DNA from: Burkholderia pyrrocinia
Lineage (GTDB): Bacteria > Pseudomonadota > Gammaproteobacteria > Burkholderiales > Burkholderiaceae
Assembly (NCBI RefSeq): GCF_001028665.1
Contig: NZ_CP011505.1
Location: forward strand, 806,001 to 870,000
DNA: 64,000 bases
Reading direction: 5' to 3'
The notes under the pieces are model-generated. The model saw nothing but the letters and a program-made list of their open reading frames with translations. It searched no databases and was not told where the DNA came from. Position numbers and translations under genes: made by a program. The number at the start of each line of letters is the position of its first letter. The stretch's first letter is position 1. This document shows, piece after piece, positions 8,846 through 34,807 of the stretch.

Positions 8846-9697
8846 TTACACGCCGTCCACCGCCCCATTCATCCGCGCGGTCACCTCGCGGCGATAGCGG
8901 TTCAGTTCCTGCGCGGTCGCGAACGTACGCTCGAACAGGATCGACAGGTTGTGCAGGATGCGCTCGACGACCTTCTTTTCCCACTCGCCGTCGAAACGGA
9001 TCTGCTCGTCGAGCCAGCGCTCGAGCCATTCCGGATCCGGCAGGCGCGACTGCACGGTGTCGCGCGGGAACAGCGCCTGGTTCACGTGCAGGTTGGTCGG
9101 GTGCAGCGGCTTCTCGGTGCGGCGCGCCGACGCCATCAGCACGCCGATCTTCGCGAACGCGGCACGCGCGACGTCGCCGCAGTTGTTCAGCGCCTTCTTC
9201 ATGTAGCGCAGGTACGCGCCGCCATGGCGCGCTTCATCGCGCGAGATCGTTTCGTAGATCTGCTTGATGACGGGCTCGGTGTGCCAGTCGGCCGCGCAGC
9301 GATACCAGTGGTTCAGGCGGATCTCGCCGCAGAAGTGCAGCATCAGCGTTTCGAGCGGCGGCGCCGGGTCGAACTGGAAGCGCACCGCGTGCAGTTCCGC
9401 TTCGGTCGGCACCATTTCCGGCTTGAAGCGGCGCAGGTATTCCATCAGCACGAGCGAATGCTTCTGTTCCTCGAAGAACCACACGCTCATGAATGCGGAA
9501 AAGTCGCTGTCGTGCCGGTTGTCGCGCAGGAACATTTCCGTCGCGGGCAACGCGGACCATTCGGTGATCGCGTTCATCCTGATCGTCTCCGCCTGCTCGT
9601 CGGTGAGCAGCGCAGCGTCGAACCGGTTCCACGGAATGTCCTTCTCCATGTCCCAGCGGACCGCTTCGAGCGACCTGAAAAGTTCCGGATAGAGCAT
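8846..9697 (-). CDS. ferritin-like diiron protein, acyl-ACP desaturase type
   Basis: This is a 283-residue soluble helical protein. Iron ligands fit the acyl-ACP desaturase/ferritin-like pattern: a first Glu near residue 47, E77-x-x-H80 (EEQKH), E125 (FCGEIRLNHW) and E155-x-x-H158 (RDEARHGGAY). That class uses O2 to desaturate or oxidise chains bound to an acyl carrier protein, fitting the ACP and acyl-AMP ligase nearby. I chose the ATG at 9697 because the fold starts there; upstream residues are Arg-rich and overlap the neighbour. It follows the membrane desaturase in the same leftward unit. The exact reaction is unknown. Confidence 0.75.
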   Translation of the reverse strand: MLYPELFRSLEAVRWDMEKDIPWNRFDAALLTDEQAETIRMNAITEWSALPATEMFLRDNRHDSDFSAFMSVWFFEEQKHSLVLMEYLRRFKPEMVPTEAELHAVRFQFDPAPPLETLMLHFCGEIRLNHWYRCAADWHTEPVIKQIYETISRDEARHGGAYLRYMKKALNNCGDVARAAFAKIGVLMASARRTEKPLHPTNLHVNQALFPRDTVQSRLPDPEWLERWLDEQIRFDGEWEKKVVERILHNLSILFERTFATAQELNRYRREVTARMNGAVDGV

Positions 9698-9737
9698 CGT
9701 CGTCACCGTCGTCGAAAGGCGTTCGGGCCGGGCACGG

Positions 9738-10733
9738 TCATGCCGACTGCGTGGACGCTGGCGCGGCCGCTTCGGCGTCGGGCGCGCGATCGTCCGCATC
9801 GTCGTCCACCGTGCGCGGCGACAGCTTGCCGCGCAGCAACGCGGAATAGAACTGCCGGTACGTGCGGTGGTAGTAGCGGATGCGCGGCGCGATCGCGCCA
9901 TGCAGGTCGTGCAGCCGCTCGATCGGCAGGTTCGGCATCATGTGGTGCTCGACATGATAGTTGTTGCCGTTCGTGAACCACGTCATGAATGCATTGCTCT
10001 CGATCGTCCGCGTGTTGCGGAACGGGTCGGTGCTCGTCAGGTCGCAGCGGTAATGCTCCGGCATCTCGACCAGCGCATGCACGGGCGCCGCGACGAACAC
10101 GAGCGGCACGACCCACACCCACACGACGAACCACGTGTGCAGCGCGAACGACAGCCCGGCCAGCAGCGCGATCGCCGCGACCATCAGCAGGTGATCGCGA
10201 CGAATGGCCCGCGACACGAGCGGGTTGTCGCCGAAGCGCGCGCCCGGCACGACGAGTTTCGCGACGTTCTTCGCGAACTGGATATAGTGCGCGGCCATCG
10301 ACAGCCGCCATGCCCACAGGCCGAGGTTGACGACGGGGCTGGCGCCGTACTGGTCGCCGTAGTCGAAGAATTCCTTGTTCTCGGGCGTGCCGAGCAAGCG
10401 GTGATGGCGCAAGTGGCTGTCCTGGTACGCATGGAACGACACGAGCATCGGCATGCCGACCAGCACGCCGAACACCATGTTGAGGCGCTTGCTCCTGAAC
10501 CCCTGGTAATGCAGCGCCTGGTGCTGCAACTCGACGCCGTGCGCATACATCGCGCCGATCAGCACGACCCCGACGATCTTCAGGAATACCGACGCCGACA
10601 GAGCGAACATCATGCCGTGCGCGATGAGCGCGACGTAGACCGCCAGCTTCAGCGAGAAGACCACGCCGCTCGGGCGGCTCTTCATGTCTGCAACTGGTTT
10701 CGGGCGGGCGACAAGCGATGAGGTGACGGACAA
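9738..10733 (-). CDS. membrane fatty acid desaturase
   Basis: This integral membrane desaturase has three histidine boxes: HGVELQHQALH near residue 65, HAYQDSHLRHH near 101, and HVEHHMMP near the C-terminus, which bind the non-haem diiron centre. Hydrophobic segments flank them. It would desaturate, hydroxylate or acetylenate a fatty acyl chain. The start is uncertain: a TTG at 10733 has AAGGAG at ideal spacing, while in-frame ATGs at 10685 and 10775 lack a clear ribosome site. It leads the leftward two-gene unit, divergent from the acyl-AMP ligase operon. Confidence 0.82.
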   Translation of the reverse strand: MSVTSSLVARPKPVADMKSRPSGVVFSLKLAVYVALIAHGMMFALSASVFLKIVGVVLIGAMYAHGVELQHQALHYQGFRSKRLNMVFGVLVGMPMLVSFHAYQDSHLRHHRLLGTPENKEFFDYGDQYGASPVVNLGLWAWRLSMAAHYIQFAKNVAKLVVPGARFGDNPLVSRAIRRDHLLMVAAIALLAGLSFALHTWFVVWVWVVPLVFVAAPVHALVEMPEHYRCDLTSTDPFRNTRTIESNAFMTWFTNGNNYHVEHHMMPNLPIERLHDLHGAIAPRIRYYHRTYRQFYSALLRGKLSPRTVDDDADDRAPDAEAAAPASTQSA

Positions 10734-11070
10734 AACGCTCTCCTTGGCCGGACCCTCGCCCGGCACCGTGGACATTGACGACGCTGGCGCGCTGCCGGGT
10801 TGCAATTCTTCTGTGAGTCGATGTTTCGGACAAACGAATTTTCCGAACGCATTGCATGACGCCCGCGCATGAGCGCACCACATCGTGAACTAGACGACCG
10901 GTCGAATGCGCGTACCGACCGTTCACCTCGTGGATGCGTGCCGCGCATGCATAGCCTGCATAGATTCCGTTTGTCGCGTTGCATCGATCCGGCAAGAATC
11001 CCCCTCACTCGACGAACGGCGCCGCCGGCACCGTGGCGCGAGCGGCCGTGTTCCTCAACGGGAGATCCTC
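10734..11070. promoter_or_regulatory. divergent promoter region of the biosynthetic cluster
   Basis: This 337-base region separates the leftward desaturase unit from the rightward acyl-AMP ligase operon and must contain both promoters. No strong -35/-10 pair was identified by eye. A spaced dyad (10825-10847) is the best candidate operator. GGGAG at 11060-11064 serves the GTG start at 11071. Confidence 0.55.
10825..10847. promoter_or_regulatory. inverted repeat, candidate operator
   Basis: TTCGGA and TCCGAA are exact inverted arms separated by 11 bases in the shared cluster promoter. The geometry suits a dimeric regulator, but the arms are only 6 bases so chance occurrence is possible. Confidence 0.35.
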
Positions 11071-12834
11071 GTGACGAAGTGCGCATCCACCATTCATCGC
11101 CTGATCGAATCGCTCGAGGACGTCGCGGGCGCCACGCATCGCATGACGTTCGTCGACGATGCGGGCCGCGAAGCGGACATCACGTACCGGCGCTTTGCGG
11201 AAGAGGTGTTTCACCAGGCCGGCGCGCTGCGCGAGCTTGGCGTCCGCGAGAACGACATGGTGATGCTCGCGCTCCCCGCATCGGTCGAGCACGCGGCCGC
11301 GATGATGGCCTGCGTGATGACGGGCGCGCTGCCCTGCACCGTGCCCGTCCCCGTGCGGCGCGCCGCCGCCGGGCGGCAGGTAGTCGACGTCGCATGCGAG
11401 CTGTACCGGCCGCGCCTCGTCGTCGCCGCGGATGCGCAGTCCGCCGCGTGGCGCGACGACGCGTTTCCCGCTGCGTCCACCCGTGTCGTCGATCTCGCGA
11501 CGCTGTCGATCGCCGCCGATGCCGGCACGCGCGCGCTGATCAGCGCGAAGTGCGGCCGCGATCCGCATCACGTGCAGCTCACGTCCGGCTCGACGTCGCA
11601 TCCGAAGGCAGCGGTGCTCAGCCACGAGAACGTGATCGCGAACGTGCTCGGCATCGGCGGATCGGTCCGCTTCGACATCGCGGCCGGCGACGGCACCGCG
11701 TCGTGGCTGCCGCTCTATCACGACATGGGCCTGCTCACGCTGCTGTCGAATCTGCACTACCGTGCGCCGTTGCTGATGATGCAGCCGAACAGCTTCATCC
11801 GGAATCCGCTCGGCTGGTTGAAGCGCATCGCGTCGGCGCGCGCGACGACGACGTCGGTGCCGACCTTCGCGCTGCGCTACTGCGTGCGTCGCTTCAATGC
11901 CGCCGCGATGGACGGCGTCGACCTGTCCGCGTGCCGCAACATCTTCATCGGCGGCGAACGCGTGGACGACGCGACGCTGCGCGATTTCGCCGCCACGTTC
12001 GCGCCGTACGGTCTCGCGGCGTCGGCGCTGCAGCCGTGCTACGGAATGGCCGAGTCGACGCTCGCAGTGTCGATGCACCGTGCATGGCATGACGGTGCGG
12101 TCGACGGCGCACCGTACGTGATCGCGGACACGCTCGACCGTCGCGCGCTGATCGAGCGCCGCGACGCGCAACCGGTCGCCTCGAACGACGGCGACGAGTC
12201 GGAAACCGAAACCGTGCTCGCGATGGGCACGCCGATCGAAGGGATGGCGTTCCGCATTCTCGACGACAGCGACCACGCACTGCCGAGTCGCACCGTCGGC
12301 GAAGTCGCGATCCGCGGCACGTCGGTGATGCTCGGCTACCTGACTCCCGACGACGGCACGATCGCCGCGCCGCTGACGGCCGACGGCTGGTTCCGCACCG
12401 GCGACATCGGTTACGTCGCGGACGGCCAGCTCCATATCCTCGGGCGCAAGAAGGAAGTCATCATCATTCGCGGCAGCAACTACTTCCCGCACGAGATCGA
12501 GGAGGCGCTTGGCGCCCATCACATGCTGCGCAAGAGCACCTGCATCGCGTTCGGGCTGCCCGATCCCGAGACCGGCACCGAGCGGCTGGTCGTCGCGATC
12601 GAGGCGCGTCCCGTCGACGCGACGCCGCAAACCCGCACCGAGTGCCAGCAGCTGCTCGCGGCGCGCATCGGGTTCGCCGCGCAGGATCTATGCTTCGTCG
12701 AACCCGGCTCGCTGCCGCGCACGACGAGCGGCAAGCTGCAGCGCCTGAAGTGTCGCGACCTCTATGCAAACGGCGCGCTGCCCGTGATCCATGCGCCGGC
12801 CGCCGTTGAAGCCGGTCAAGGAGCGTACGCATGA
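11071..12834 (+). CDS. fatty acyl-AMP ligase
   Basis: This 587-residue ANL-superfamily enzyme resembles fatty acyl-AMP ligases, which adenylate fatty acids for transfer to an acyl carrier protein. Visible motifs are the P-loop LTSGSTSHPKAAVLSH near residue 170, the FAAL-typical SWLPLYHDMGLL near 210, GGERVDD, the GWFRTGDIGY core near 440 with GRKKE, and the C-terminal lysine in TTSGKLQRLK near 550. The GTG start at 11071 has GGGAG six bases upstream. Its stop overlaps the next ATG, showing translational coupling with the exporter genes. It probably primes the ACP encoded at 17994. Confidence 0.88.
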   Translation: MTKCASTIHRLIESLEDVAGATHRMTFVDDAGREADITYRRFAEEVFHQAGALRELGVRENDMVMLALPASVEHAAAMMACVMTGALPCTVPVPVRRAAAGRQVVDVACELYRPRLVVAADAQSAAWRDDAFPAASTRVVDLATLSIAADAGTRALISAKCGRDPHHVQLTSGSTSHPKAAVLSHENVIANVLGIGGSVRFDIAAGDGTASWLPLYHDMGLLTLLSNLHYRAPLLMMQPNSFIRNPLGWLKRIASARATTTSVPTFALRYCVRRFNAAAMDGVDLSACRNIFIGGERVDDATLRDFAATFAPYGLAASALQPCYGMAESTLAVSMHRAWHDGAVDGAPYVIADTLDRRALIERRDAQPVASNDGDESETETVLAMGTPIEGMAFRILDDSDHALPSRTVGEVAIRGTSVMLGYLTPDDGTIAAPLTADGWFRTGDIGYVADGQLHILGRKKEVIIIRGSNYFPHEIEEALGAHHMLRKSTCIAFGLPDPETGTERLVVAIEARPVDATPQTRTECQQLLAARIGFAAQDLCFVEPGSLPRTTSGKLQRLKCRDLYANGALPVIHAPAAVEAGQGAYA

Positions 12835-13541
12835 CGTCCGCATCGTTCCCGCCGGTGCTCGAGCTGCGCGACGTCTCACGCGTCTACGAGGGCGCGGGCC
12901 GCGTCGTCGCGGTGCGCGGCGCGACGATCTCGATCGGCCAGCGCGACGTGGTCGCGCTCGTCGGCCCGTCCGGCAGCGGCAAGAGCACGCTGCTCAATCT
13001 CGCGGGCTTTCTCGACGTGCCGAGCACCGGCGAACGCTGGCTCGAAGGCCGCCGCATCAACGATGCGCCGGACACGCTCGAACGAATTCGCCGCGAACGC
13101 ATCGGCTTTGTGTTCCAGCAGTTCAACCTGATTCCGGTGATGTCGGCGCTCGAGAACGTCGAGCTCGGCTGCTTCGCATGGGGCACGCCGCGCACGCGCC
13201 GCGAGCGCGCCCGCGCGATGCTCGATGCGGTCGGGCTCGCCGCACGCGAACGCCACCGCCCCGGCGAGCTGTCCGGCGGCGAGCAGCAGCGCGTCGCGCT
13301 GGCCCGCGCGCTTGCCAAGGAGCCCGCCATCGTGATCGCGGACGAGCCGACCGCGAGCCTCGACAGCACCAACGCGCTGGCGGTGGCCGAGCTGATCCTC
13401 GACACCAACCGCACGCTGGGAACCGCCTTTCTGATTGCGTCGCACGACGATCGTCTGTGCACGCGCCTGCCTCGCCGCATCGAGATGCGCGACGGCGTAC
13501 CGGGAGTGAACCGTGAACTGGTCGACGTTTGCGTGGCGTAA
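12831..13541 (+). CDS. ABC transporter ATP-binding protein (LolD/MacB type)
   Basis: This 236-residue ATPase has Walker A GPSGSGKST near residue 45, a Q-loop in VFQQFNLIPVMSALENV, the signature LSGGEQQRVALARA, and Walker B IVIADEPTASLD. The sequence is of the LolD/MacB class that partners FtsX-type permeases and drives transfer of molecules from the inner membrane outward. It overlaps the ligase by ATGA and the permease by 29 bases. Together with the next three genes it forms a trans-envelope export set. Confidence 0.9.
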   Translation: MTSASFPPVLELRDVSRVYEGAGRVVAVRGATISIGQRDVVALVGPSGSGKSTLLNLAGFLDVPSTGERWLEGRRINDAPDTLERIRRERIGFVFQQFNLIPVMSALENVELGCFAWGTPRTRRERARAMLDAVGLAARERHRPGELSGGEQQRVALARALAKEPAIVIADEPTASLDSTNALAVAELILDTNRTLGTAFLIASHDDRLCTRLPRRIEMRDGVPGVNRELVDVCVA

Positions 13542-14730
13542 CCTCTGGCGCAACCGGCGCCGCACCGTGCTCACGATGGCGATGATCGGCGTCGCCGCGT
13601 TCGCGTCGAGCCTCGCGCTCGGCTACGTGATCGCGACGTTCGACGCGGTGCGCGAAGGGTCGATCGACAGCGGCGTCGGCCATGTGCAGGTACTGCACCA
13701 CGGCTATCTCGACCGGATCGGCGAGCGGCCGCTGCAGTACGGGCTGACCGCCGACGAGCAGGCCGCCGCGGCACGCGCCGTCGCGACGCTGCACGGCGTC
13801 GCGACGACCGCGCGCGGCATCGACTTCGACGGGCTGGTCTCGAACGGCGATCTCAGCTACGGCTTCGTCGGCGAAGGCATCGAGCCGAACCGCGAGCCGC
13901 CCGGCTTCTTCGACTATCACACGGTGTTGTCGGGCCGCTACCTGTCGCCGACCCATGCCGGCACCGAAGTCGTCGTCGGCGCCGAACTCGCGCGCAAGCT
14001 CGGCGTCCACGTGGGCTCGGTCGTGCAACTGATGGCATCGACCGCGCACGGCGGCATCAACGCGACCGACGCGCAGATCGTCGGCGTGATGAGCACCGGC
14101 AACAAGGACATCGACGAGCGCATCGTCAACGTGACGTTCGCCGCCGCGCAGGCGCTGCTGCGCACCGACCGCGCGTCGCGCATCGCGGTGTTCCTGTCGG
14201 ATACGTCGCACACGCCGGCCGCCGCCGCGACGCTGCGCGCCGCGCTGCCGACGCTCGACGTGAAGACCTGGGACCAGCTCGTGTCGCTCTATCACCAGGT
14301 CGTCGCGCTGTACAAGAACCAGTTCTCGGTATTCGGCGCGATTCTCAGCGTGACGATCCTGCTGTCGATGAGCAACTGGATCCTGATGAGCATCGTCGAG
14401 CGCCGCCGCGAGATCTCGACGCTGCGTGCACTCGGCGTGCCGGCCGCAACGGTGCGCGGCGTGCTGATCCAGGAAACCGCGCTGCTCGGCCTGCTCGGCG
14501 CGGCCGCCGGCATCGCGGTGGCGCTGCTGACGATGGTCGCGCTCAATCACGCGCAGATCCACCTGCCCGCGCCGCCGGGCCGCGTGAAGCCGATCCTGCT
14601 CGAATTCACGGTATCGCCGGCCGCCGTGGCCGCCGTCGAAGGCGCGTTCGTCGTGCTTGGCGTGGCAGCCGCGCTGCTCGCGACACTCGGACTCGCCAAA
14701 CGCAACATCCTCGAAGGACTCGCCCCATGA
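13513..14730 (+). CDS. ABC transporter permease, FtsX/LolC-E/MacB type
   Basis: This 405-residue permease has one N-terminal membrane segment (TMAMIGVAAFASSLALGYVI), a large periplasmic domain, then three C-terminal segments including MSNWILMSIVERRREISTLR, the FtsX-domain hallmark. It starts with GTG inside the ATPase gene. LolE/MacB-type permeases extract lipoproteins, lipids or peptides from the outer leaflet of the inner membrane rather than importing solutes. The hydrophobic chemistry encoded around it suggests a lipid-like cargo. Confidence 0.87.
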   Translation: MNWSTFAWRNLWRNRRRTVLTMAMIGVAAFASSLALGYVIATFDAVREGSIDSGVGHVQVLHHGYLDRIGERPLQYGLTADEQAAAARAVATLHGVATTARGIDFDGLVSNGDLSYGFVGEGIEPNREPPGFFDYHTVLSGRYLSPTHAGTEVVVGAELARKLGVHVGSVVQLMASTAHGGINATDAQIVGVMSTGNKDIDERIVNVTFAAAQALLRTDRASRIAVFLSDTSHTPAAAATLRAALPTLDVKTWDQLVSLYHQVVALYKNQFSVFGAILSVTILLSMSNWILMSIVERRREISTLRALGVPAATVRGVLIQETALLGLLGAAAGIAVALLTMVALNHAQIHLPAPPGRVKPILLEFTVSPAAVAAVEGAFVVLGVAAALLATLGLAKRNILEGLAP

Positions 14731-15476
14731 TCCGCATTCGCGTTACGTACGCCGCTTTCGCCGCGCTCGTCGCGTGCGCGCCGGCCGCCCATGCAGCCGA
14801 CGCACCGCCGGCCCAGACCATGCTCGCCCGTGCCGACGCCTATCGCAGCACGGCCGCCGATACGCAGACGAACATCGAGATCACGAACCTGGCCGGCGGA
14901 CAATCCGGCGACGCGACGCGCTATCTCGTCTATACGCGCGGCAACGGCGACACGCTCGCGCTGACCCGCAGCGGCGAGAACGACGGCCAGAAGTATCTCG
15001 CGACGACGCGCGGGCACTGGTTCTACGTGCCGAACACGCGCAGCGCGGTGCGCATCAACGGAATGCAGCGGCTGCAGGGCGAAGTCGTGATCAGCGACAT
15101 CACGCGCACGCACTGGGCAGACAGCTACCGCGCGACGGCCGCGCCCGGCACGACGGCGATCGCCGGCAAGCCGGCCACCGAGCTCGACCTGACCGCGACC
15201 GATCCCGACAACGTCTATCCGACGATCAAGCTGTGGGTCACGCCCGACAGCGACGTGCCGGTGCGCGCGCAGTTCTTCCTGGCGAGCGGCCTGCTGTTCC
15301 GCAGCGCCGATTTCTCCACGCCGGTCGAGGCGAACGGGCGCAAGGTGATCCGCAAGATCACGTACCGCAACGAGATCGAGAAGCAGCGCGCGAGCGTCGT
15401 CGACATCCTCGACGGCCAGCCGCGCAAGATTCCGTCGGGCTGGTTCAATCCCGACACGCTTGCCGATGGCCAGTGA
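14727..15476 (+). CDS. periplasmic outer-membrane lipoprotein-sorting (LolA-like) protein
   Basis: This 249-residue protein has a cleavable signal peptide (Arg-containing start, hydrophobic core, cleavage likely after AAHA). It then resembles the LolA-like 'outer membrane lipoprotein-sorting' family, with a beta-rich half-barrel and segments such as RGHWFYVPNTRSAVRING and IRKITYRNEIEKQR. Such proteins ferry hydrophobic cargo through the periplasm after an FtsX-type ABC transporter releases it. ATGA overlap with the permease and overlap with the next gene support one export machine. Confidence 0.8.
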   Translation: MIRIRVTYAAFAALVACAPAAHAADAPPAQTMLARADAYRSTAADTQTNIEITNLAGGQSGDATRYLVYTRGNGDTLALTRSGENDGQKYLATTRGHWFYVPNTRSAVRINGMQRLQGEVVISDITRTHWADSYRATAAPGTTAIAGKPATELDLTATDPDNVYPTIKLWVTPDSDVPVRAQFFLASGLLFRSADFSTPVEANGRKVIRKITYRNEIEKQRASVVDILDGQPRKIPSGWFNPDTLADGQ

Positions 15477-16806
15477 CAACGAGGCCCGCGCCGATGCCCA
15501 TCGTGACCGCTTCCGTCCATCGTCCGGCCGCACATGCGCGCCGCGCAGACGCGCCTGGCATCGCGCCGCGCTCGCCTTCCCGCTCGCGCTCGGCTGCACG
15601 TTCGCGCATGGAGAATCGCTGATGGACCAGTTGAGCACGCTGAACGGCATCGCGTACGCCCGCTCCGTCGACAGCACGGACGGCCATGCGCTGCTCGGCA
15701 ACCTGATCGGCGACGAACCGCGCAACCGGCAGGAAGCCGGCCTGCTCGCGCGCATCGACGGCGAAAACCTGTTCATGAACGCGCGCGTCGTCGCGAGCAA
15801 TCACTCGCTCGGCGCACAGGCGAGCCGCTTCAACGAGGCCGGCGTGCGCTACGCGTTCGACAACGGCATCACGCTCACGGCCGGCAAGCGGATCGACCCG
15901 CTCGACACGTCGCAGGCGTTCTTTCCGCTCGGCTTCTTCCAGAAGCGGGCCGCGACGGCGGATATCTACGATCGCTACGGCGACGTCGAAGGCACGCCGC
16001 TCGTCGAGGCGAAATGGGCCGGCGAACAGACCACGCTGCAGTTCATCGCCGGCGAGAACCGCACGTTGCGCAACGACGTCGACAACCGCGACGTGCAAGG
16101 CGCGACGCAGCTCGTGCGCGGCGCGTACAACTGGTCGGGCGGCTCCGCCGCATTGCTCGCCGGCCGTCACGCGGGCCGCGGCGGCGCAGGCGCAACGTTG
16201 TCGTTCGACGTCGCGAGTTCGAACACCGTCTATGCGAGCGCGTGGCTCGAACGCGGCACGACGCGGCCGCTGCCGGCGTTCATCGCGAACGGCACGCCGC
16301 TCGATTCGCCGGCCGCCTACGACGCGGTCGATCGCCGCAACGACCGACAAGTCATGTGGCGCAGCGCGGTCGGGATGCAGAGCGCGCTGCCCGGCAACCT
16401 GTCGCTGATCGTCGAGTGGTCGCACGACGAGGCGCGTTACGACGCGAACCAGTGGCGCCAGATGGTCGGCGCGGTCCGCGCGAACAACGCGCTGCTGCCG
16501 GTCGCGCCCGGCGCCGCGCTCGCCGGCCTCGGCGGCACGGCCGACTTCGTGAGCGCCGACGGCAACCTGCGCGACTACCTGTTCGCGCGGCTCGGCAAGA
16601 AGATCGGCCGCGTCGAGTATTCGCTGCGCGGCGTCTACTCGCCGCAGGACAAGGGCCTGCTCGCGATCGCCCAGGTCGTCGCCGACGTGAACCAGCGCGT
16701 GAGCGTCGATGTCGCGCTCTCGCACGCATTCTCCGACAGCAATTCCGAGTACCGGATGGTCGGTCTCGGCACCCGCATCGACGCCGCCGTGCGCGTGCGC
16801 TTCTGA
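15466..16806 (+). CDS. putative outer-membrane beta-barrel protein of the export system
   Basis: This protein is about 446 residues long. A long Arg-rich n-region precedes a hydrophobic stretch (AALAFPLALGCTFAHG), suggesting a signal peptide. The mature part alternates polar and aromatic/hydrophobic residues like amphipathic strands and ends in RVRF, a terminal Phe as in many outer-membrane barrels. I recognise no named family. The ATG at 15466 overlaps the LolA-like stop by 11 bases; a TTG two codons earlier is also open. By position it is the outer-membrane component of the preceding ABC/LolA-like set; that is inference. Confidence 0.7.
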   Translation: MASDNEARADAHRDRFRPSSGRTCAPRRRAWHRAALAFPLALGCTFAHGESLMDQLSTLNGIAYARSVDSTDGHALLGNLIGDEPRNRQEAGLLARIDGENLFMNARVVASNHSLGAQASRFNEAGVRYAFDNGITLTAGKRIDPLDTSQAFFPLGFFQKRAATADIYDRYGDVEGTPLVEAKWAGEQTTLQFIAGENRTLRNDVDNRDVQGATQLVRGAYNWSGGSAALLAGRHAGRGGAGATLSFDVASSNTVYASAWLERGTTRPLPAFIANGTPLDSPAAYDAVDRRNDRQVMWRSAVGMQSALPGNLSLIVEWSHDEARYDANQWRQMVGAVRANNALLPVAPGAALAGLGGTADFVSADGNLRDYLFARLGKKIGRVEYSLRGVYSPQDKGLLAIAQVVADVNQRVSVDVALSHAFSDSNSEYRMVGLGTRIDAAVRVRF

Positions 16807-27429: not shown

Positions 27430-28659
27430 ATGGACACGACACTCGATTCCGCCGCGGCCGCCACGACAGGCGATGCGCCGCGCAACCTGCTCGGCCGCCC
27501 GGCGACCCGCCATCGCGGCACCGACATCGACGGCGCGACGCTCGAACCCGAAGCGCTGCGCGTGCGCGATCTCGACCTGAACGCGCTGATCGGCGCGACG
27601 ACGTTCGAAGGTGCGCTCGCGCACCTGTGGTTCGACGTCGCGCCGGGCAGCGTCGAGCACGAAGCACACGAGGTGGCGATCCGCGCGAGGCTGGCAGCGT
27701 TCGCCGACGCGCTGGCGCCCGGTTCCGCCGCGCAGTTCGTCGCGGCGAATCTCGGCGCGGCAGGCGTCGCGCCGGTGTTCGCGGCCGCGTCCGGCCTGTT
27801 GCGTGGTCTCGATGACGTACAGGCGCGCATGCACGGCGGCGAGCCGGACGACGCCGATCTCGACGCGATGCTGCTGTGCGCGGCCGCCACGCCGTTCCTG
27901 CTGCACGCGGCGATCGGGGGCCGGCCGTTCGCTGCCGGCGCCGGCGCATCGCTCGACGCAGCCACGACGCAAGCGCAACGCATGCTCGTGCTGACCGGCG
28001 CAACGCGCACCGATGCAGCGGCGCAAGCCGCGATGGACATGCTGCTCGTCGCGTGGCACGCCGGCTTCGGCTACATCACGCCGACCGTGCTCGCGCCGCG
28101 CGTCGCGATCGGCACCGGTGTCACGCTGACGCAGGCGATCGCGGCCGGTTTCCTCGCGAGCGGGCCGTCGCACGTCGGCGCCGCGCTCGAAGCGATGCAC
28201 TGGCTCGGCGCGCTCGCGCTGTCGGTGCCGGGCGGCGCCGGCGCGCCGTCCGCCGCGCTCGATGCGGCCGGGCGCGCGGCGATCGATGCGGCGCTCGACG
28301 CGAAACACACGCTGTACGGCTTCGGCCATCCGCTGTTCGTCGCCGATCCGCGTCCGCCGCACATGCGTCGCCTGTTCGCGGCGCGCGGCTTCGACGGCGC
28401 GTACGTGACGCTGTTCGACGCGTGTTGCGCGCAGGCCGACGCGCGCCGCGCGCTACAGCCGAACATCGATTTCCTGACCGCCGCGACGCTGCTCGAACTC
28501 GGCGTCGCCGCGCCGTCGTGGGGCGTCGGCGTCGGGCTCGGCGCACGCATCGCGGCCATGGCCGCGCATGCGGTCGAACGCCGGCGCCGTCCCGCGTTCG
28601 GCGTCAACAGCGCGACCGCGCGACGGCTGCTGGCCGCCGTGCCGGTCGGCTGGCTGTGA
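27430..28659 (+). CDS. citrate synthase-fold enzyme
   Basis: This 409-residue protein matches the citrate/2-methylcitrate synthase fold. ASGPSHVGAAL near residue 246 corresponds to the GPLHGGA His motif; GFGHPLFVADPRPP near 297 to GFGHRVYKNxDPR; PNIDFLTA near 346 carries the catalytic Asp. The first catalytic region (HADHELNAS in true synthases) is replaced by AWHAGFGYITPT. The family forms or breaks C-C bonds by Claisen-type chemistry on acyl-CoA. In this operon it could condense or cleave a 2-oxo or acyl intermediate; it overlaps nothing but sits one base after the dehydrogenase. Confidence 0.78.
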   Translation: MDTTLDSAAAATTGDAPRNLLGRPATRHRGTDIDGATLEPEALRVRDLDLNALIGATTFEGALAHLWFDVAPGSVEHEAHEVAIRARLAAFADALAPGSAAQFVAANLGAAGVAPVFAAASGLLRGLDDVQARMHGGEPDDADLDAMLLCAAATPFLLHAAIGGRPFAAGAGASLDAATTQAQRMLVLTGATRTDAAAQAAMDMLLVAWHAGFGYITPTVLAPRVAIGTGVTLTQAIAAGFLASGPSHVGAALEAMHWLGALALSVPGGAGAPSAALDAAGRAAIDAALDAKHTLYGFGHPLFVADPRPPHMRRLFAARGFDGAYVTLFDACCAQADARRALQPNIDFLTAATLLELGVAAPSWGVGVGLGARIAAMAAHAVERRRRPAFGVNSATARRLLAAVPVGWL

Positions 28660-28687: not shown

Positions 28688-29350
28688 ATGCTGCTCAAGA
28701 ACCTGCGCCCGGCGAACGACTACGATCGCTTCGCCACCGAAACGCTCGAACCGTGGGACCTGCTGTTCATCAGCCGCATCCGCCAGCTGGCGCGCGGAAT
28801 GACGCCCGGCGTGATCGCCGACATCGGCACGGCCACCGGCGTCGTGCCGGTGCGGCTCGCGACCGACCCGGCGATGCGCGACTGGCGCTACGTCGGCATC
28901 GACCTCGATCCGGCGATGCTCGACGAAGGCCGCCCGCGCATCCACGAGCTCGGTCTCGACGACACGATCGAGATGCGCGTCGGCGACGCGCTCGCGCTGC
29001 CGTTCGACGACGGCACGCTGACGATGGCGGTCGGCCGCGCGACGCTGCACCACCTGCCCGACAAGGCGCTGAGCCTGACCGAGATGTATCGCGTGCTGGA
29101 ACCGGGCGGCATCGCGCTCGTGCACGACATGCGCCGCGATGCGCCGCAGCACCTGCTCGACCGTTTCACCGAGATGCGCGCCGCCGCCGACTATCCGCCG
29201 ACCCACGTCGAGGAGAAGATCACGCTCGACGAAGCGCATGCGCTCGTCGCCGAAGCCGGCCTGGCCGACGTCGCGTCGATCTACAGCCCGAGCGCGGGAC
29301 TCGGTGCGCTCGGCTTCGAAATCCTGCTGAAGAAACCGGCGCTGGCCTGA
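28688..29350 (+). CDS. SAM-dependent methyltransferase
   Basis: This 220-residue class I methyltransferase has the SAM-binding glycine loop ADIGTATGVVPVRL near residue 44, the acidic ribose ligand in VGIDLDPAML, GDALALPF, and the LEPGGIALVHD strand of the Methyltransf_11/25 type. It would O-, N- or C-methylate a pathway intermediate. The ATG at 28688 lies 29 bases after the citrate-synthase-like stop. Confidence 0.85.
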   Translation: MLLKNLRPANDYDRFATETLEPWDLLFISRIRQLARGMTPGVIADIGTATGVVPVRLATDPAMRDWRYVGIDLDPAMLDEGRPRIHELGLDDTIEMRVGDALALPFDDGTLTMAVGRATLHHLPDKALSLTEMYRVLEPGGIALVHDMRRDAPQHLLDRFTEMRAAADYPPTHVEEKITLDEAHALVAEAGLADVASIYSPSAGLGALGFEILLKKPALA

Positions 29351-29353
29351 GCG

Positions 29354-30427
29354 ATGACCGACCTCGCCTTCCTCGCCGCGCACGCCGCCGTGCGGCTCGG
29401 CGCCGACGACGTCCACTGCGCGGCGGTCGCGCCCGGCGCGACGCTGCCGCTATGCGTGACGCCGCGCAACGCCGAACTCGCGAACTCGCCGGACCTGTTC
29501 GTCGCGTGGTACCGCTCGCGGCTCGACACGATCGACACGCTGCTCGACGCGTGCGGCGCGCTGCTGTGGCGCGGCTTCGCGGTGCCCGACACAGCGGCGT
29601 TCGGCCGCCTCGGCGCGCTGTATCCGGCGCACGCGAACGGCTATACGGCGGGCGCCGCACCGCGCAGGCAGATCGACGGCCAGGTCTACGAATCGACCCG
29701 CATGCCGCCGCCGTTCAAGATCGGGCTGCATCAGGAGATGGCCTACATGCCCGCGTTCCCGCGCCTCGTCGCGTTCTATTGCCGGCAGCCGGCCGACGCG
29801 GGCGGCGAAACGCCGATCTGCGACATGCGGCGCGTGACGGCACGCGTGCCGGCCGCGCTGCGCGAACGGTTCGCCGCGCGCGGCGTGATGTACCTGCGCA
29901 ATTTCGCGGCGCCCGGCGATCGCGCGGACGGGCTCGCCGCCAACCCGAACCTGCCGTTCGCCGCGTATCACCGGCCGTGGGACGACGCGTTCGGCACCGC
30001 CGAGCGCGACGAGGTCGAGCGGCTGTGCGCGGCGCGCGGCGTCGGCTGCCGCTGGCTCGACGACGGCAGCGTGACCGTGTCGCACGTCGGCAGCGCGCTG
30101 CGCGCGCATCCGCGCACCGGCGAAACCGTCTGGTTCAACCAGGCGAGCGCGCAGCACCCGAACCCGCGCTCGATGGGCGAGCTCAGCTACCGCTACCTGC
30201 AGCGCATGTACGGCACGCGCGCCGCGTTCCCGTACGAGATCCGCTACGGCGACGGTGCGCCGATGCCGTACGACGATCTCGCCGCGATCTACGACGCGCT
30301 CGACGACGAGGAGCTGTCGTTCCCGTGGCAGGCCGGCGACGTGCTCGTCGTCGACAACATGCTGGTCGCGCACGGCCGCAACCCGTACCGGGGTGCGCGC
30401 GACACGCAGGTCATGCTGTTCGACTGA
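29354..30427 (+). CDS. TauD/TfdA-type Fe(II)/2-oxoglutarate dioxygenase (SyrP-like)
   Basis: This 357-residue protein has the TauD fold with iron ligands HQE (LHQEMAYM, near residue 125; Glu rather than Asp) and the distal His in NMLVAHGRNPY near 338, followed by the 2-oxoglutarate-binding Arg region. SyrP-like members hydroxylate carrier-bound aminoacyl groups in antibiotic pathways, consistent with this context. It begins 3 bases after the methyltransferase. Confidence 0.83.
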   Translation: MTDLAFLAAHAAVRLGADDVHCAAVAPGATLPLCVTPRNAELANSPDLFVAWYRSRLDTIDTLLDACGALLWRGFAVPDTAAFGRLGALYPAHANGYTAGAAPRRQIDGQVYESTRMPPPFKIGLHQEMAYMPAFPRLVAFYCRQPADAGGETPICDMRRVTARVPAALRERFAARGVMYLRNFAAPGDRADGLAANPNLPFAAYHRPWDDAFGTAERDEVERLCAARGVGCRWLDDGSVTVSHVGSALRAHPRTGETVWFNQASAQHPNPRSMGELSYRYLQRMYGTRAAFPYEIRYGDGAPMPYDDLAAIYDALDDEELSFPWQAGDVLVVDNMLVAHGRNPYRGARDTQVMLFD

Positions 30428-30439
30428 CAGGATGCAACG

Positions 30440-31453
30440 ATGAGCGTCTCCTTCCTCGCCTCCGTGCGCGCGATGTTCGGCCCGCACACCGCGTTCGACC
30501 GGCCGCAGCGCTCGGGCACGCCGCCGCTGCCCGATGCGCATGCGCCGGGCGCGGCGCTCGGCGCGCGCGCGATCGACGTCGCGGCCGGCGATTTCCGCTT
30601 CTCCGCGCGGCACGTGCGGTTCCGGCTCGGCGCCATCACCGCGATCGTCGGGCCGAACGGCTCCGGCAAGACCACGCTGCTCGAAACGCTGCTCGGCTTC
30701 CGGCGCGGCGGCAGCGACGTGCGCGTGCTCGACGTGCCGGCCGAGCGCTTCATGCGCGATACGCGGTCGCTGCGGCGGCTCGGCGCGCAATTGCAGAAGG
30801 TCGAGTATCCCGACCACCTGCGCGTGTCGGAGATCGTCGCGCTGCACCGCGCGATGTACGTGCACGCGGATGCGGCGATCACCGGCGTGCTCGGCATCGC
30901 CGAACTGCTCGACAAGCCGTGCCGCGCGCTGTCGAAGGGGCAGCGCCAGCGCGTGGACCTCTACGTCGCGCTCGCGCACCGGCCCGAACTGGCCGTGCTC
31001 GACGAACCGTTCACCGGCCTCGACCGTCGTTATGCGGGCGTCGTGATCGACCTGCTGCGCCAGCGCCCGCGCGGCGCGAGCGTCGCGATGATCTGCCATT
31101 CCGAGGAAGAACTGGCCGTCGTCGACGATCTCGTGTGGGTGCGCGACGGCGGCGTGCGCTACCAGGGCGACAAGGCGACGCTGCAGGCGGAACTCGTCGG
31201 CGACGCGCGCGCGGTCCTGCATTGCCGCGACGAAACCGATGCGCGCGCGCTGCGCAAGCGGCTCGCGGCGCTGCCCGGCGTGACCGGCGTGCGCGTGTCG
31301 GCGTCGCACGTCGTCGAAGCGTTCGGCGATGCGACGCTGCATCCGAACGTGCACCGGATCGTCGGCGAACAGGGCATCCAGCATCTCGCGCTCGCGCCCA
31401 GCACGCCGGGCGACCTGCTGCGCCTCTGCACCGAGGGCCCCGTCCATGACTAA
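30440..31453 (+). CDS. ABC-2-type exporter ATP-binding protein
   Basis: This 337-residue ATPase has Walker A GPNGSGKTTLLE near residue 71, the signature LSKGQRQRVDLYVAL, and Walker B LAVLDEPFTGLD, with a C-terminal extension typical of drug and lipid ABC-2 exporters. A ~60-residue N-terminal leader precedes the nucleotide-binding fold. Its stop overlaps the permease start. This is a second ABC system in the cluster, distinct from the LolD-type one. Confidence 0.87.
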   Translation: MSVSFLASVRAMFGPHTAFDRPQRSGTPPLPDAHAPGAALGARAIDVAAGDFRFSARHVRFRLGAITAIVGPNGSGKTTLLETLLGFRRGGSDVRVLDVPAERFMRDTRSLRRLGAQLQKVEYPDHLRVSEIVALHRAMYVHADAAITGVLGIAELLDKPCRALSKGQRQRVDLYVALAHRPELAVLDEPFTGLDRRYAGVVIDLLRQRPRGASVAMICHSEEELAVVDDLVWVRDGGVRYQGDKATLQAELVGDARAVLHCRDETDARALRKRLAALPGVTGVRVSASHVVEAFGDATLHPNVHRIVGEQGIQHLALAPSTPGDLLRLCTEGPVHD

Positions 31454-32525
31454 GGTTTTCCTGATCCTCGTGCGCAACGAGCTGCTCGGTTACCTGCGCA
31501 GCCGCTCGTCGCTGTTCTGGACGCTCGTGTTCCCGGTGTTCCTGCTGAGCGTGATGCTGTTCGCGTTCGGCGGCTCGGGCTCGCTCGGCACGGCCGACAT
31601 CGCGTTCGACGTGCCCGGCGGCGCGACGCCGTACAGCCGCGCGTGCGAAGCGCAGATCGTCGCCAGCCTGTCGCACAGCGACACGGTAAAGGCAACCTTC
31701 GGCGGCAGCGGCGCGGCGGCCGATCGCGTCACCGTCGTGCTGGGTGCGGACGAACGCACGCCGGCGACGATCCGCTACGACTTCAACGGCTCGCTCGCCG
31801 TGAAGGCCGCATCGCGGGTCGTCGAGATCGCGCTCGCGCGCTGCGCCGCGCAACGGCTCGGGCTGCCCGCCGCGCAGGCGCGCTTCGAGAACGCGGCGCC
31901 GGCGCGCCGCCCGTTCGACTATGGCGCGTTCTTCGCGACCGGCATCCTGGTGATGGCGTTCATGGCGATCGGCCTCAACTCGACGACAACCGCGATCGCC
32001 TCGCTACGCGAACGCAACACGTTCAAGCTGTACGTGTGCTTCCCGGTCTCGCGCGGCGTGTTCCTCGCCGCGCTGATCGTCGCGCGGATGGCGATGATGG
32101 CGCTGTCGGCGCTCGTGCTGCTGACGGTCGCGCGCGTCGCGTTCGGCATCGCGCTGCCGATCGCGACGCCGGACGGCCTGCGTGCGTTGCCGATCGTGCT
32201 GCTCGGCGCGGCGATGGTGCTGAGCATCGGCGTGCTGCTCGCGAGCCGCACCCGATCGCTGGCGGCCGCCGAACTCGCGTGCAACATCACCTACTACCCG
32301 CTGCTGTTCTTCAGCGACCTGACGATTCCGATGCACGACGCGCCGGCATGGTTGAAGGCCGTGCTCGCGTTCCTGCCGACCAACCAGTTCGCCGTCGCGC
32401 TGCGCGGCGCGCTGGTCGACGGCGCGCCGTACGCACAACTCGCGCCGCAACTGCTCGGCATGGCCGCGAGCACGGCGCTGTTCCTGTTCGCCGCCGCGCG
32501 GCTGTTCCGCTGGCATGACGCATGA
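31446..32525 (+). CDS. ABC-2-type exporter permease
   Basis: This 359-residue membrane protein has an N-terminal segment (SLFWTLVFPVFLLSVMLFAF), an extracytoplasmic domain of about 130 residues, and five C-terminal membrane segments, the ABC2_membrane_3 layout. It pairs with the preceding ATPase (8-base overlap) to pump a small molecule out of the cytoplasm, probably the product or as self-protection. Confidence 0.85.
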   Translation: MTKVFLILVRNELLGYLRSRSSLFWTLVFPVFLLSVMLFAFGGSGSLGTADIAFDVPGGATPYSRACEAQIVASLSHSDTVKATFGGSGAAADRVTVVLGADERTPATIRYDFNGSLAVKAASRVVEIALARCAAQRLGLPAAQARFENAAPARRPFDYGAFFATGILVMAFMAIGLNSTTTAIASLRERNTFKLYVCFPVSRGVFLAALIVARMAMMALSALVLLTVARVAFGIALPIATPDGLRALPIVLLGAAMVLSIGVLLASRTRSLAAAELACNITYYPLLFFSDLTIPMHDAPAWLKAVLAFLPTNQFAVALRGALVDGAPYAQLAPQLLGMAASTALFLFAAARLFRWHDA

Positions 32526-32562
32526 CGCGTCGCCCGCTGTTTCGACGAAGGAGAAAACCCGG

Positions 32563-33105
32563 ATGAAATCGACCAATCCCATAACCGACTACCTTCTGCA
32601 CGCCAGCAACTTCCTGCCGGCGATCGTGTTCCTGTTCTACGGCCGGCTCGGGCCCGAACAGCCTGACGTGCGCTGGACGCACGCGTTCCTGATCGGCGGC
32701 GTGCTCGCGCTCGTGCACGGCGCATGGCTGATCCGCCGCGCAAACCGCAACAGCATCGCGATCGGCGTCGACCTGTTCCTCGTGATCGGCGCCGTGCTCG
32801 CGATCGTGTCGCCGACGGGTAGCCGTCTGTGGGGCGAGGAACTCGGGCCGGCCGCGATGCTCGTCTGCGTGCTGGTGGTCGGCATCGTGCATACCGCGTG
32901 GTCGGACGGCGGTTTCGTCGACGGCACGTTCGTCGACCATGCGCGGGCGCGTTCGCTGTCGCTCGTCCTGCTCGCCGTCACGGCCATCGCGCTCGCCGTG
33001 TCGATCGCGATGCGGCACAGCCCGCTGTGGGGCGGTGTCGTCCCGCTGGTCGCGCTGGTCGTCGTGCGCGGCCGCCTGCGCAAGCAACTGGTGCGGGCGA
33101 ACTGA
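32563..33105 (+). CDS. small multi-spanning membrane protein
   Basis: This 180-residue protein has about five or six hydrophobic segments (for example NFLPAIVFLFYG, AFLIGGVLALVHGAW, VDLFLVIGAVLAIV, AAMLVCVLVVGIV, VLLAVTAIALAVSIA). I recognise no family. AAGGAG before the ATG and tight spacing place it in the operon. It may assist export or anchor membrane-bound enzymes such as the desaturase. Confidence 0.65.
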   Translation: MKSTNPITDYLLHASNFLPAIVFLFYGRLGPEQPDVRWTHAFLIGGVLALVHGAWLIRRANRNSIAIGVDLFLVIGAVLAIVSPTGSRLWGEELGPAAMLVCVLVVGIVHTAWSDGGFVDGTFVDHARARSLSLVLLAVTAIALAVSIAMRHSPLWGGVVPLVALVVVRGRLRKQLVRAN

Positions 33106-33107
33106 CG

Positions 33108-34517
33108 ATGAACGCGCTGCCCGAACACGCCACGCAGCGGCACGCGCTCGCCGCGACGCTCGGCGACGGCTGGCTCGAAGGCGCGTCGTGCGAGCCGTAC
33201 GCGACGGATGCGGCGCTGTATGGCGGCGTCGCGCTCGGCGTGGCGCGACCGGCATCGACCGCCGACACGAGCGCGCTCGCGCGGGTCGCCGCTGCGCACC
33301 GGATCGCGCTCGTCGCGCAGGGCGCGCGCACCGGGCTCGTCGGCGCCGCCGTGCCCGATCGCAGCGGCACGCAATGCGTGGTGTCGTTCGACCGGATGCG
33401 CGCCATTCGCGCGTTCGATCCGGCGAACCGCAGCATCACCGTCGAGGCCGGCGCGCGCCTGTCCGACATCAATCGCGTGGCGGCCGAAGCCGGCCTCTGC
33501 CTGCCGATCGATCTCGGCAGCGATCCGGCGGCCGGCGGCCTCGTCGGCGCCAACGCGGGCGGCAGCCGTCTCATCAAGTACGGCGACGTGCGCCGCAATG
33601 TACTCGGCATCGAAGTGGTGCTCGCCGACGCGGCGGGCACCGTGATCGACACGCTCGCGCCGCTGCGCAAACGCAACGCGGGCTTCGACGTCACGCAGTG
33701 CTTCATTGGCGCGAACGGCGCCAACGGGCTCGTGACGGCCGTGTCGTTCGCGCTTGCCGCGCTCGAACGGTCGTCGTGCGCCGCGTTCGTCGCGTTCGCG
33801 TCGTACGATGCCGCGCTCGCCGGCCTGCTCGCGTTCGAGCGCGCGTTCGGCGAGCTGCTGTCGGCGTTCGAATTCATGTCGGCCGCCGCGGTCGGCTGCG
33901 TCGCCGCCGCGTTTCCCGCGTTGCGCGTTCCGTTCGCGGCAAACGATGCCGCGTGCTACGCGCTCGTCGAGATCGCGACCGGCATGCCCGGGCTCGATGC
34001 GCTGCTCGAGGAGCGCGCACTCGCGACGCTCGACGCGCTCGCGAACGAACGCGTGGTGCTCGACGCGGCCTGCGCGCCGGCGGAACGGTTCTGGCGGATC
34101 CGCGACGCGCTGCCGGTCGCGGTCGCGCAAGAAGGCATTCCGCTGTCGTTCGACGTATCGTTTCCGCGCGGTGCGCTGGCATCGTTCGTGACCGGCGCCG
34201 AGCAGTGGATCGCCGACGCACATCCGTCGCTGCGCTGTCATGCGTTCGGCCATTTCGGCGACGGCGGCTGCCATCTCGTCGTATCGATTCCACACGACAG
34301 TGCGCAACGGTACGGGCCACTGCAGCAGGTCGCACTGCGCGGCGCGCTGTACGACCGCGTCGCGCGCGCGGGCGGGTGCTTCAGCGCGGAACATGGCGTC
34401 GGGCCCGTGAACGTCGCGTACTACCGCAAGCACGTGCCGGCTTCACATCGGCAAGTCGCCGCCGCTGTCCAGCACGCGATCGACCCGCTGGGTCTGATCG
34501 GACGTGTCCGCTATTGA
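33108..34517 (+). CDS. FAD-linked oxidase (GlcD/D-lactate dehydrogenase type)
   Basis: This 469-residue flavoprotein of the PCMH/vanillyl-alcohol-oxidase fold has AQGARTGLVGAAVP and GSDPAAGGLVGANAGG in the FAD_binding_4 domain, and GHFGDGGCHL plus FSAEHGVG in the C-terminal FAD-oxidase domain. Relatives oxidise 2-hydroxyacids such as glycolate or D-lactate. Paired with the citrate-synthase homologue it could supply a 2-oxoacid, but that is inference. It starts 2 bases after the membrane protein. Confidence 0.83.
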   Translation: MNALPEHATQRHALAATLGDGWLEGASCEPYATDAALYGGVALGVARPASTADTSALARVAAAHRIALVAQGARTGLVGAAVPDRSGTQCVVSFDRMRAIRAFDPANRSITVEAGARLSDINRVAAEAGLCLPIDLGSDPAAGGLVGANAGGSRLIKYGDVRRNVLGIEVVLADAAGTVIDTLAPLRKRNAGFDVTQCFIGANGANGLVTAVSFALAALERSSCAAFVAFASYDAALAGLLAFERAFGELLSAFEFMSAAAVGCVAAAFPALRVPFAANDAACYALVEIATGMPGLDALLEERALATLDALANERVVLDAACAPAERFWRIRDALPVAVAQEGIPLSFDVSFPRGALASFVTGAEQWIADAHPSLRCHAFGHFGDGGCHLVVSIPHDSAQRYGPLQQVALRGALYDRVARAGGCFSAEHGVGPVNVAYYRKHVPASHRQVAAAVQHAIDPLGLIGRVRY

Positions 34518-34549
34518 CGCGCCGTATCGAGGCGCCACGGAGAATTCGC

Positions 34550-34807
34550 ATGATGTTTCGACGCCCGCCCGGCCCGGTCACCGCTTCCGAACCGGACGCC
34601 GATCAACCGTTCTCCGGTATCCCGGCCACGCTGCCCGACTCGGGGGTCATGGTCAACGTGCGCGGCGTCGCGTACGTGATCAGCCTGCCGCCGCGCGACC
34701 ATGCGCGCCCGGCACTGTGGCGCGATCTTGCGCAATGGCGCGACGGTGGACCGGCCGATGGCACGCCGTGCGATGCGGTCGAGCCGGATGCGTCAATCGA
34801 CACATAG
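34550..34807 (+). CDS. small hypothetical protein closing the cluster
   Basis: This 85-residue ORF has CGGAG about 9 bases before its ATG and lies 32 bases after the oxidase stop. The sequence has no membrane segment or recognised motif; a central part (GVMVNVRGVAYVISLPP) could form beta strands. Its spacing and codon use support translation as the last gene of the operon. Function unknown. Confidence 0.5.
   Translation: MMFRRPPGPVTASEPDADQPFSGIPATLPDSGVMVNVRGVAYVISLPPRDHARPALWRDLAQWRDGGPADGTPCDAVEPDASIDT

Follow-up and report, generated by a model that had tools for sequence, protein, structure and literature searches.

What does a run of two dozen closely packed biosynthetic genes lacking any megasynthase make, and has it been seen before? 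The question is raised by a 64,000-nucleotide stretch of Burkholderia pyrrocinia DNA (assembly GCF_001028665.1, contig NZ_CP011505.1, positions 806,001 to 870,000 of the forward strand; G000:C3:806001-870000, hereafter the window), in which an earlier note had described an unrecognised lipid/amino-acid biosynthetic cluster. The cluster is in fact already characterised and is not a new system: with a probability of about 95%, the window carries the afc cluster together with shvR, and the same compound as AFC-BC11, or a very close one, is predicted here. AFC-BC11 is a light-sensitive antifungal lipopeptide of B. cepacia complex (Bcc) strains (m/z 734.397), an N-acyl tetrapeptide that combines an O-methyl-malate fatty acid and a dehydro-lysine with three dehydro-beta-alanines (DBA; Z,Z,E) (PMC12186527).

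In the published afc locus, 24 genes form two divergent operons next to shvR; a TRAP operon borders them on one side, a hydrolase and an MFS gene on the other (PMC6301696). The window shows this layout. The gene order that we reconstructed from the published text, D-C / A-B-G-H-I-J-K-L-M-N-O-P-Q-R-E-S-T-U-V-W-X-F, uses each letter from A to X once and is compatible with every function assignment in the available text of PMC12186527. The window's contig, C3, accounts for 1,049,005 bases of a four-contig, 7.96-Mb genome, and the published location of afc is the third replicon (pC3). Residues published for the pathway enzymes are also in place: Ser40 of AfcK and Cys111 of AfcL occur at the same positions, and Arg308/Lys500 of AfcQ correspond to the published Arg311/Lys503 with a constant offset of 3. 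ShvR control of the afc genes is published (PMC6301696), and the window's ShvR matches at 93% over 329 aa its positional counterpart in B. cenocepacia CMCC(B)23006.

The same gene order recurs in other Burkholderia genomes. All 24 afc genes, shvR, the hydrolase, MFS and TRAP genes lie in the window's order on a plasmid of B. cenocepacia CMCC(B)23006 (NZ_CP091014.1), where the best tblastn piece for each afc gene is 88-99% identical. Over positions 8846-33000, identity is 92.7% to this strain (100% of the query) and 93.2% to a B. arboris plasmid, the two records with at least 80% coverage among the 16 plasmid records that matched. The 19 genes from D to T occur in the window's order in B. puraquae, B. 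lata, B. anthina and B. cenocepacia NCTC13227, the compared stretches all stopping inside afcT and that of B. puraquae also inside afcD. The earlier note had named as its refutation a characterised cluster of identical gene order whose product is known, and afc is such a cluster: it agrees with the window in the order of its genes, in its flanks and regulator and in the catalytic residues published for it, and its product is solved. We therefore count the cluster as known.

Several points weigh against this identification. AFC-BC11 production by this strain is a prediction made from its genes; B. cenocepacia H111 is reported to carry afc and not to express it in culture (PMC6301696); and afcQ and afcR are each split over two frames in the CMCC(B)23006 record (L002, 20056-22730). 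That copy may be damaged or misread, given the two frames; each of the two genes forms a single open frame in B. anthina, B. puraquae and B. lata. The H111 precedent also speaks for a cluster that is complete in this strain yet unexpressed under ordinary conditions, as does the divergent promoter region, where a scan found no sigma-70-like site. We consider this unlikely: a missing consensus match is no evidence of silence, and shvR and all 24 afc genes are open frames here. That the cluster is unrecognised and makes a different, unknown product, as first read, is very improbable, for although I, J, L, M, R and X match no Pfam or NCBIfam family, the gene order, flanks, regulator and residues given above point to a cluster with a solved product.

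Other parts of the earlier description held up better. Genes were called over the window by codon-position GC, and the window's proteins were scanned against Pfam (30 entries, plus rescans of afcI and afcF) and, for 20 of them, against NCBIfam. Neither condensation nor modular ketosynthase domains were found among the proteins scanned against Pfam, in agreement with the claimed lack of polyketide synthase or nonribosomal peptide synthetase (NRPS) modules, and the picture of one megasynthase-free lipid/amino-acid system with its own envelope transport genes is borne out. The fatty acyl-AMP ligase, acyl carrier protein (ACP), membrane desaturase, two diiron enzymes, pyridoxal phosphate (PLP) decarboxylase, second AMP ligase, citrate-synthase homologue, methyltransferase and two ABC transporters that the earlier note named are all present, together with its dioxygenase (of TauD type) and its FAD enzyme (of GlcD type). 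So are its three thiolase-fold proteins (AfcO by Pfam; AfcL and AfcR as beta-ketoacyl-ACP synthase III (KAS III)-like proteins according to PMC12186527) and its two acyl-CoA-dehydrogenase types (AfcE by Pfam, AfcJ by predicted fold). The diiron enzymes are not unrelated as it held, both matching AurF. The 22 plus-strand genes of the afcA-afcF operon run from 11071 to 34517, behind two minus-strand genes, and all reading frames of this main operon are open; the afcA start is probably the GTG at 11071, giving 587 aa. Seven of the operon's 21 joints overlap, four of them by exactly 4 bases (ATGA), and the remaining 14 are gapped, 13 by 1-58 bases and one by 145; the ATGA overlaps taken as a sign of one system therefore exist, in smaller number than stated. 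The cluster ends on the right at 34517, the formerly given 34807 belonging to a wrong-frame open reading frame (32939-34807) with no family. Rfam and tRNA scans of the window gave no match.

The product and much of its condensation-domain-free assembly by single enzymes were published in 2025 in J Am Chem Soc (PMC12186527), the steps being shown with proteins or mutants of other strains. As described there, AfcQ activates L-Asp via its side-chain carboxylate and loads it onto AfcK, AfcP decarboxylates Asp-S-AfcK to beta-alanine, and AfcQ also forms the amide bonds, iterating to (beta-Ala)3. AfcA puts a myristoyl group on (beta-Ala)3-S-AfcK, the trimer being acylated and the single residue not; AfcL, very likely through Cys111, takes over the peptide and hands it on to Lys-S-CoA; the C-terminal Lys is desaturated by AfcC; AfcT O-methylates, and AfcS and AfcF are required for the malate head. 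The same source finds afcM, afcN and afcO essential, AfcI (an outer-membrane channel) dispensable and an afcD deletion without effect on the wild-type profile; it names AfcX as a membrane or membrane-associated protein and notes that Thr replaces the active Cys of KAS III in AfcR. Two steps of this paper are left unexplained, and for these we can add candidate enzymes: the geometry of the DBA trimer and the origin of the malate-like tail reduce to single-enzyme questions, AfcJ for the former, AfcF and then AfcS for the latter.

We propose that AfcE would make the E bond and AfcJ the Z bonds of the DBA residues. The role of AfcJ was left open in PMC12186527, where afcJ is essential. Bolagladin contains a single DBA, of E geometry, with BolQ as the dehydrogenase (PMC7756342), and AfcE is a homologue of BolQ (PMC12186527). 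In our comparison of 65 genomes of the genus (G-numbers), in which AfcS and AfcL matches were counted, G014 holds a locus that we call bolagladin (bol)-type from its gene content; it encodes an AfcE homologue (81%) and nothing matching AfcJ. Since AFC-BC11 (Z,Z,E) has both enzymes, AfcJ probably makes its Z bonds, as this gene-set comparison and the predicted fold suggest. The AfcJ model (predicted local distance difference test, pLDDT, 90.8) has an acyl-CoA dehydrogenase fold with 294 matches in the PDB at E <= 0.001, and among the matches listed all are acyl-CoA or acyl-ACP dehydrogenases and close kin, including ColB1, FkbI and TcsD, with carrier-linked dehydrogenases among them; by sequence, FadE3 was the sole PDB match (21 bits). 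The open-licence literature, as far as searched, contains no paper assigning AfcJ to the Z bonds.

Against this assignment stands the afcJ mutant, which lacks AFC-BC11 and shows no shunt product in the main text of PMC12186527, so that its phenotype does not demonstrate a dehydrogenase role. Moreover, J occurs without E in the four Alteromonadaceae-type loci described below, and in G047 an E gene is accompanied by two L-like genes but by no J, so J does not track L everywhere. These loci do not decide the question of geometry.

AfcJ, L and M would cooperate in building and capping the trimer. All three are absent from the bol-type locus, and J lies directly before L in all four Alteromonadaceae-type loci. 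The weak conservation of AfcM argues against such a partnership: it was found in one of these four loci by joint search and in three when searched singly. AfcM carries a published label as a UDP-glycosyltransferase-type protein. Its model has a pLDDT of 71.9; Foldseek returned nothing at E <= 0.001 (top match a 3-hydroxy-3-methylglutaryl (HMG)-CoA synthase at 0.095), and in the VIA structure comparison 23 of the 50 matches shown were thiolase-superfamily members by title, every Z being at most 5.9. With sequence searches of Pfam, NCBIfam and the PDB empty and all fold matches weak, any placing of AfcM in a known fold is uncertain; its distant relative in locus L072 gave no match either.

AfcB/G/H and AfcV/W would export the product. 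As a side observation, AfcQ scores over the cut-off of TIGR03098 (exosortase-A-associated ligase), and the best NCBIfam match of AfcP, below cut-off, is TIGR03099 (exosortase-A-associated decarboxylase); exosortase loci may hold a related amino-acyl-carrier module.

Concerning the tail, the published formulae yield the following acyl parts, written as free acids: C18H32O4 and C18H32O5 for the mutants in afcS and afcF, C20H34O7 for that in afcT, and C21H36O7 for the wild type. All published mutant tail masses fit one line: diacid, +O, -2H, +acetyl unit, +CH2. We therefore suggest a path that would lead from octadecenedioic acid through a hydroxy-diacid and a keto-diacid (C18H30O5) to acetyl-unit addition and O-methylation. 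AfcU is a candidate for the 2-hydroxylation of the tail acid, AfcF would oxidise the 2-hydroxy acid to a 2-keto acid, and AfcS would add acetyl-CoA to the keto acid, giving an alkyl-malate that AfcT would then methylate. AfcF suits the oxidation as a member of the D-2-hydroxyacid dehydrogenase family, and the acetyl addition agrees with citrate-synthase chemistry, hence with AfcS. Both reactions may take place once the chain is complete or already on a starter of malyl/oxaloacetyl type; the data are compatible with either. AfcF scores 153 bits with TIGR00387 (below cut-off) and matches D-2-hydroxyglutarate dehydrogenase 6lpn at 3.8e-51; orthologues (E <= 1e-90) occur in 20 of the 65 genomes, namely the 17 Bcc-type afc carriers, G038, G042 and G014. 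Compared with the genome's own citrate synthase (L055), AfcS keeps the citrate-synthase motifs GPSH, GFGHPLF..DPR and PNID; two further rows of that alignment, from L056 and L057, were in the wrong reading frame and were left out of account. Their retention was rejected as a substrate test, for it fails to separate free oxaloacetate from a longer keto acid. No paper resolving AfcF turned up in the open-licence literature as far as it was searched.

A number of observations run counter to the AfcF-then-AfcS path. The published route joins citryl-CoA to the methyl end of the myristoyl chain, a coupling placed there because AfcA activates C14:0 and not diacids; the available text of PMC12186527 does not report the predicted keto-acid intermediate for the afcS mutant; BolR, the homologue of AfcS, makes citrate from free oxaloacetate (PMC7756342); and loci bearing S and T without AfcF exist, namely the variant of G035 and four in which S and T lie with fatty-acid synthase (FAS) genes.

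Two other routes deserve weight. One, to which we give somewhat less than an even chance, begins with citrate. Here AfcS would make citryl-CoA, its substrate being either oxaloacetate or oxaloacetyl-CoA that AfcF derives from malyl-CoA, and one of the KAS III-like Afc proteins would use the citryl-CoA to start a fatty acid, as has been proposed for bolagladin. The activity of BolR and the motifs kept in AfcS agree with this, and so do AfcS/AfcT homologues that lie inside a type II FAS-like gene set in G018, with genes of matching size around them in G015, G027 and G061; these loci are, however, distant (about 35% in AfcS). The rejection of diacids by AfcA (PMC12186527) also counts against a citrate-first start. 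Rather improbable, to our mind, is the tail as published, with myristoyl transferred onto the trimer first and citryl-CoA joined later to its methyl end. It accounts for the in vitro preference of AfcA for C14:0 over dicarboxylic acids (PMC12186527), but it needs a C-C bond at an unactivated methyl, leaves AfcF without a defined role and requires oxaloacetate and succinate as stand-ins to explain the C18 diacids of the afcS and afcF mutants.

How far do these genes extend? AfcS matches at E <= 0.001 occur in 29 of the 65 genomes: 17 at 87-100%, then G038 (80%), G042 (78%), G014 (75%) and G035 (59%), and about 35% in four (G015, G027 and second copies in G018 and G061), other matches being weaker. 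AfcL is present in 21, the same 17 at 92-100% plus G042, G038, G035 and G047, the last with two weak tandem copies. G035 (L039/L040) is a variant with A, J-R, E and S-X, without F, D, G, H, I or a true B; its extra genes encode a class III aminotransferase, another kind of membrane desaturase and an MFS protein. G047 (L053/L054) holds a divergent cluster of DBA type with E, K, P, Q, V, W, two tandem L-like and O- and R-like genes. It has a Rieske oxygenase and FabF and FabA-like genes of its own and lacks S, T, N, F, J and M; what matches A and B there we read as AMP ligases and ATPases of other kinds. The S/T locus of G018 (L043/L044), annotated with Pfam, includes ketosynthases, a reductase, a dehydratase, ACP, AMP ligases and MatE, while those of G015 (L041/L042), G027 (L045/L046) and G061 (L047) were judged by gene sizes; an AfcB/G/H-like transporter lies near the S/T locus in G015, G018 and G027.

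An AfcL scan of genome contigs gave 14 loci: nine in Burkholderia, one in Robbsia andropogonis (63%, with afc order in the stretch compared) and four gammaproteobacterial ones at 30-34%, in three Alteromonadaceae metagenome-assembled genomes and Thalassomonas sp. RHCl1. In each of these four (L069-L072, stretches of 15-21 kb) Q, P, J, L, K, B and G are present, and none has E, S, T, N, O, R, U or F within the stretch compared; L072 (6257-20716) also has a tryptophan-halogenase-like FAD protein and an alpha/beta hydrolase. G579, which belongs to the same class but to a different family, has Q, P, J, L, E, K, B, G and H together, with one TAG in J. The AfcJ profile is rare: with up to 5 candidates scored per genome listed and the source genome counted each time, it was found in 1 of 399 genomes sampled from the order and 2 of 398 from the phylum. 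The LolCDE-like AfcB/G pair appears to travel with the peptide core. Tentatively, and with the odds against the whole of it, afc may belong to a wider family of condensation-domain-free DBA assembly lines (core Q-P-J-L-K with B/G) in which AfcJ sets Z and AfcE E bonds and the head is built by AfcF and then AfcS, not by joining citrate to a methyl end. The open-licence literature, as far as searched, holds no description of afc-like clusters in Alteromonadaceae. The J-L signature offers a search handle for related assembly lines beyond Burkholderia.

The cluster has also been lost. B. pyrrocinia BX1 (L076, NZ_CP150851.1) is collinear with the window at 2097-7549, 7860-8089 (part of shvR), 32317-32623 (307 bases at the afcW/afcX junction) and 34773-38239; judged from this alignment, its locus is the remnant of a lost afc cluster, the rest of 7550-34772 being gone. 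Repeated loss of afc is the published view (PMC6301696). The flanking hydrolase was considered as a missing release enzyme and rejected. It occurs (E <= 1e-60) in 34 of the 65 genomes, and because 20 of the other 48 genomes have it along with 14 of the 17 Bcc-type afc carriers (G008, G023 and G061 lack it), its presence is not linked to afc. On Cupriavidus sp. KK10 plasmid p1 (L075, 5493-8754) we noted a lone afcD homologue (85% over 251 aa), which looks interrupted, its C-terminal part being matched separately at a distance of about 2.4 kb. All features are collected in the table.

Table. Features of the window, with coordinates, strand and basis of assignment.
Feature	Coordinates	Strand	Basis
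Flank MFS transporter, outside pathway	4791..6149	+	BCAS0227 position
Flank alpha/beta hydrolase	6210..6971	-	BCAS0226 position
shvR, LysR-type activator of afc genes	7232..8221	-	LysR helix-turn-helix and substrate domains
afcD, diiron acyl-ACP-desaturase/AurF-like	8846..9697	-	AurF match 1.8e-06, just under curated cut-off
afcC, membrane fatty-acid-desaturase fold	9738..10685	-	PF00487 1.9e-39
Divergent promoter region between the two operons	10686..11070	.	between divergent start codons
afcA, fatty acyl-AMP ligase	11071..12834	+	Pfam/NCBIfam scans
afcB, LolD-type ABC ATPase	12831..13541	+	best NCBIfam LolD, below cut-off
afcG, LolC/E-type permease	13513..14730	+	MacB_PCD and FtsX; best NCBIfam lolCE, below cut-off
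afcH, LolA-like periplasmic protein	14727..15476	+	PF17131 2.7e-24
afcI	15622..16806	+	open frame; no Pfam or NCBIfam family
afcJ, acyl-CoA-dehydrogenase-fold protein	16820..17935	+	predicted structure; no Pfam or NCBIfam family
afcK, sole acyl/peptidyl carrier protein, Ser40	17994..18248	+	PF00550 6.6e-07
afcL, KAS III-like acyltransferase, Cys111	18256..19131	+	no family match; type per PMC12186527
afcM, 206 aa	19133..19753	+	no Pfam, NCBIfam or PDB sequence match
afcN, AurF-type diiron enzyme	19776..20738	+	PF11583 1.5e-15
afcO, KAS III-like	20740..21729	+	PF08545 4.3e-06
afcP, PLP decarboxylase	21719..22894	+	PF00278, PF02784; ATG at 21719
afcQ, VinN-type L-Asp adenylating enzyme	22919..24493	+	PF00501 2.2e-79; TIGR03098 over cut-off
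afcR, KAS III-like	24490..25581	+	no family; 71% to bol-type homologue (G014)
afcE, acyl-CoA dehydrogenase	25578..27428	+	PF12806, PF00441; 81% to bol-type homologue (G014)
afcS, citrate-synthase homologue	27430..28659	+	PF00285 3.4e-21
afcT, O-methyltransferase	28688..29350	+	PF08241; 85% to bol-type homologue (G014)
afcU, TauD-type Fe/2-oxoglutarate oxygenase	29354..30427	+	PF02668 7.4e-36
afcV, ABC ATPase	30440..31453	+	PF00005
afcW, ABC-2 permease	31446..32525	+	PF12698
afcX	32563..33105	+	no Pfam or NCBIfam family
afcF, GlcD/D-2-hydroxyacid-dehydrogenase-family FAD enzyme	33108..34517	+	PF02913 9.7e-31, PF01565 4.2e-28
Flank TRAP C4-dicarboxylate transporter	34926..37838	-	BCAS0197-0199 position
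Ankyrin-repeat protein, 350 aa	41812..42864	-	outside cluster

The afc cluster is a published virulence determinant and AFC-BC11 a potent antifungal with an unusual scaffold, to which the window adds another intact afc copy. With respect to the known afc clusters (B. orbicola Mc0-3, B. pyrrocinia, B. puraquae, B. cenocepacia), the window differs by species-level divergence only. Solanimycin was considered as a relative and set aside, its residues being argued in the available text of PMC10204066 to be dehydro-alpha-alanine. The modules VinN/VinO of vicenistatin and BtrK of butirosin are like afc in activating an Asp/Glu-type residue through its side chain onto a free carrier and decarboxylating it there (PMC12186527, PMC7756342); in afc, by contrast, the adenylating enzyme itself iterates the step. 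A further comparison is with bolagladin. AfcS and AfcT are homologues of BolR and BolS, and the bol-type locus of G014 shares homologues of shvR, A, K, N, F, D, O, P, Q, R, E, S, T and U, afcD being the best conserved (91%), whereas B, G, H, I, J, L, M, V, W and X are missing and C has a weak match. Its genes surround an NRPS-size gene of 4536 aa, and the bol cluster has a tetramodular NRPS (BolH), unlike the window, in whose scanned proteins no condensation domain was found. Bolagladin and AFC-BC11 share a methoxy-malate fatty tail and DBA, the former with one E-DBA, the latter with the Z,Z,E trimer.

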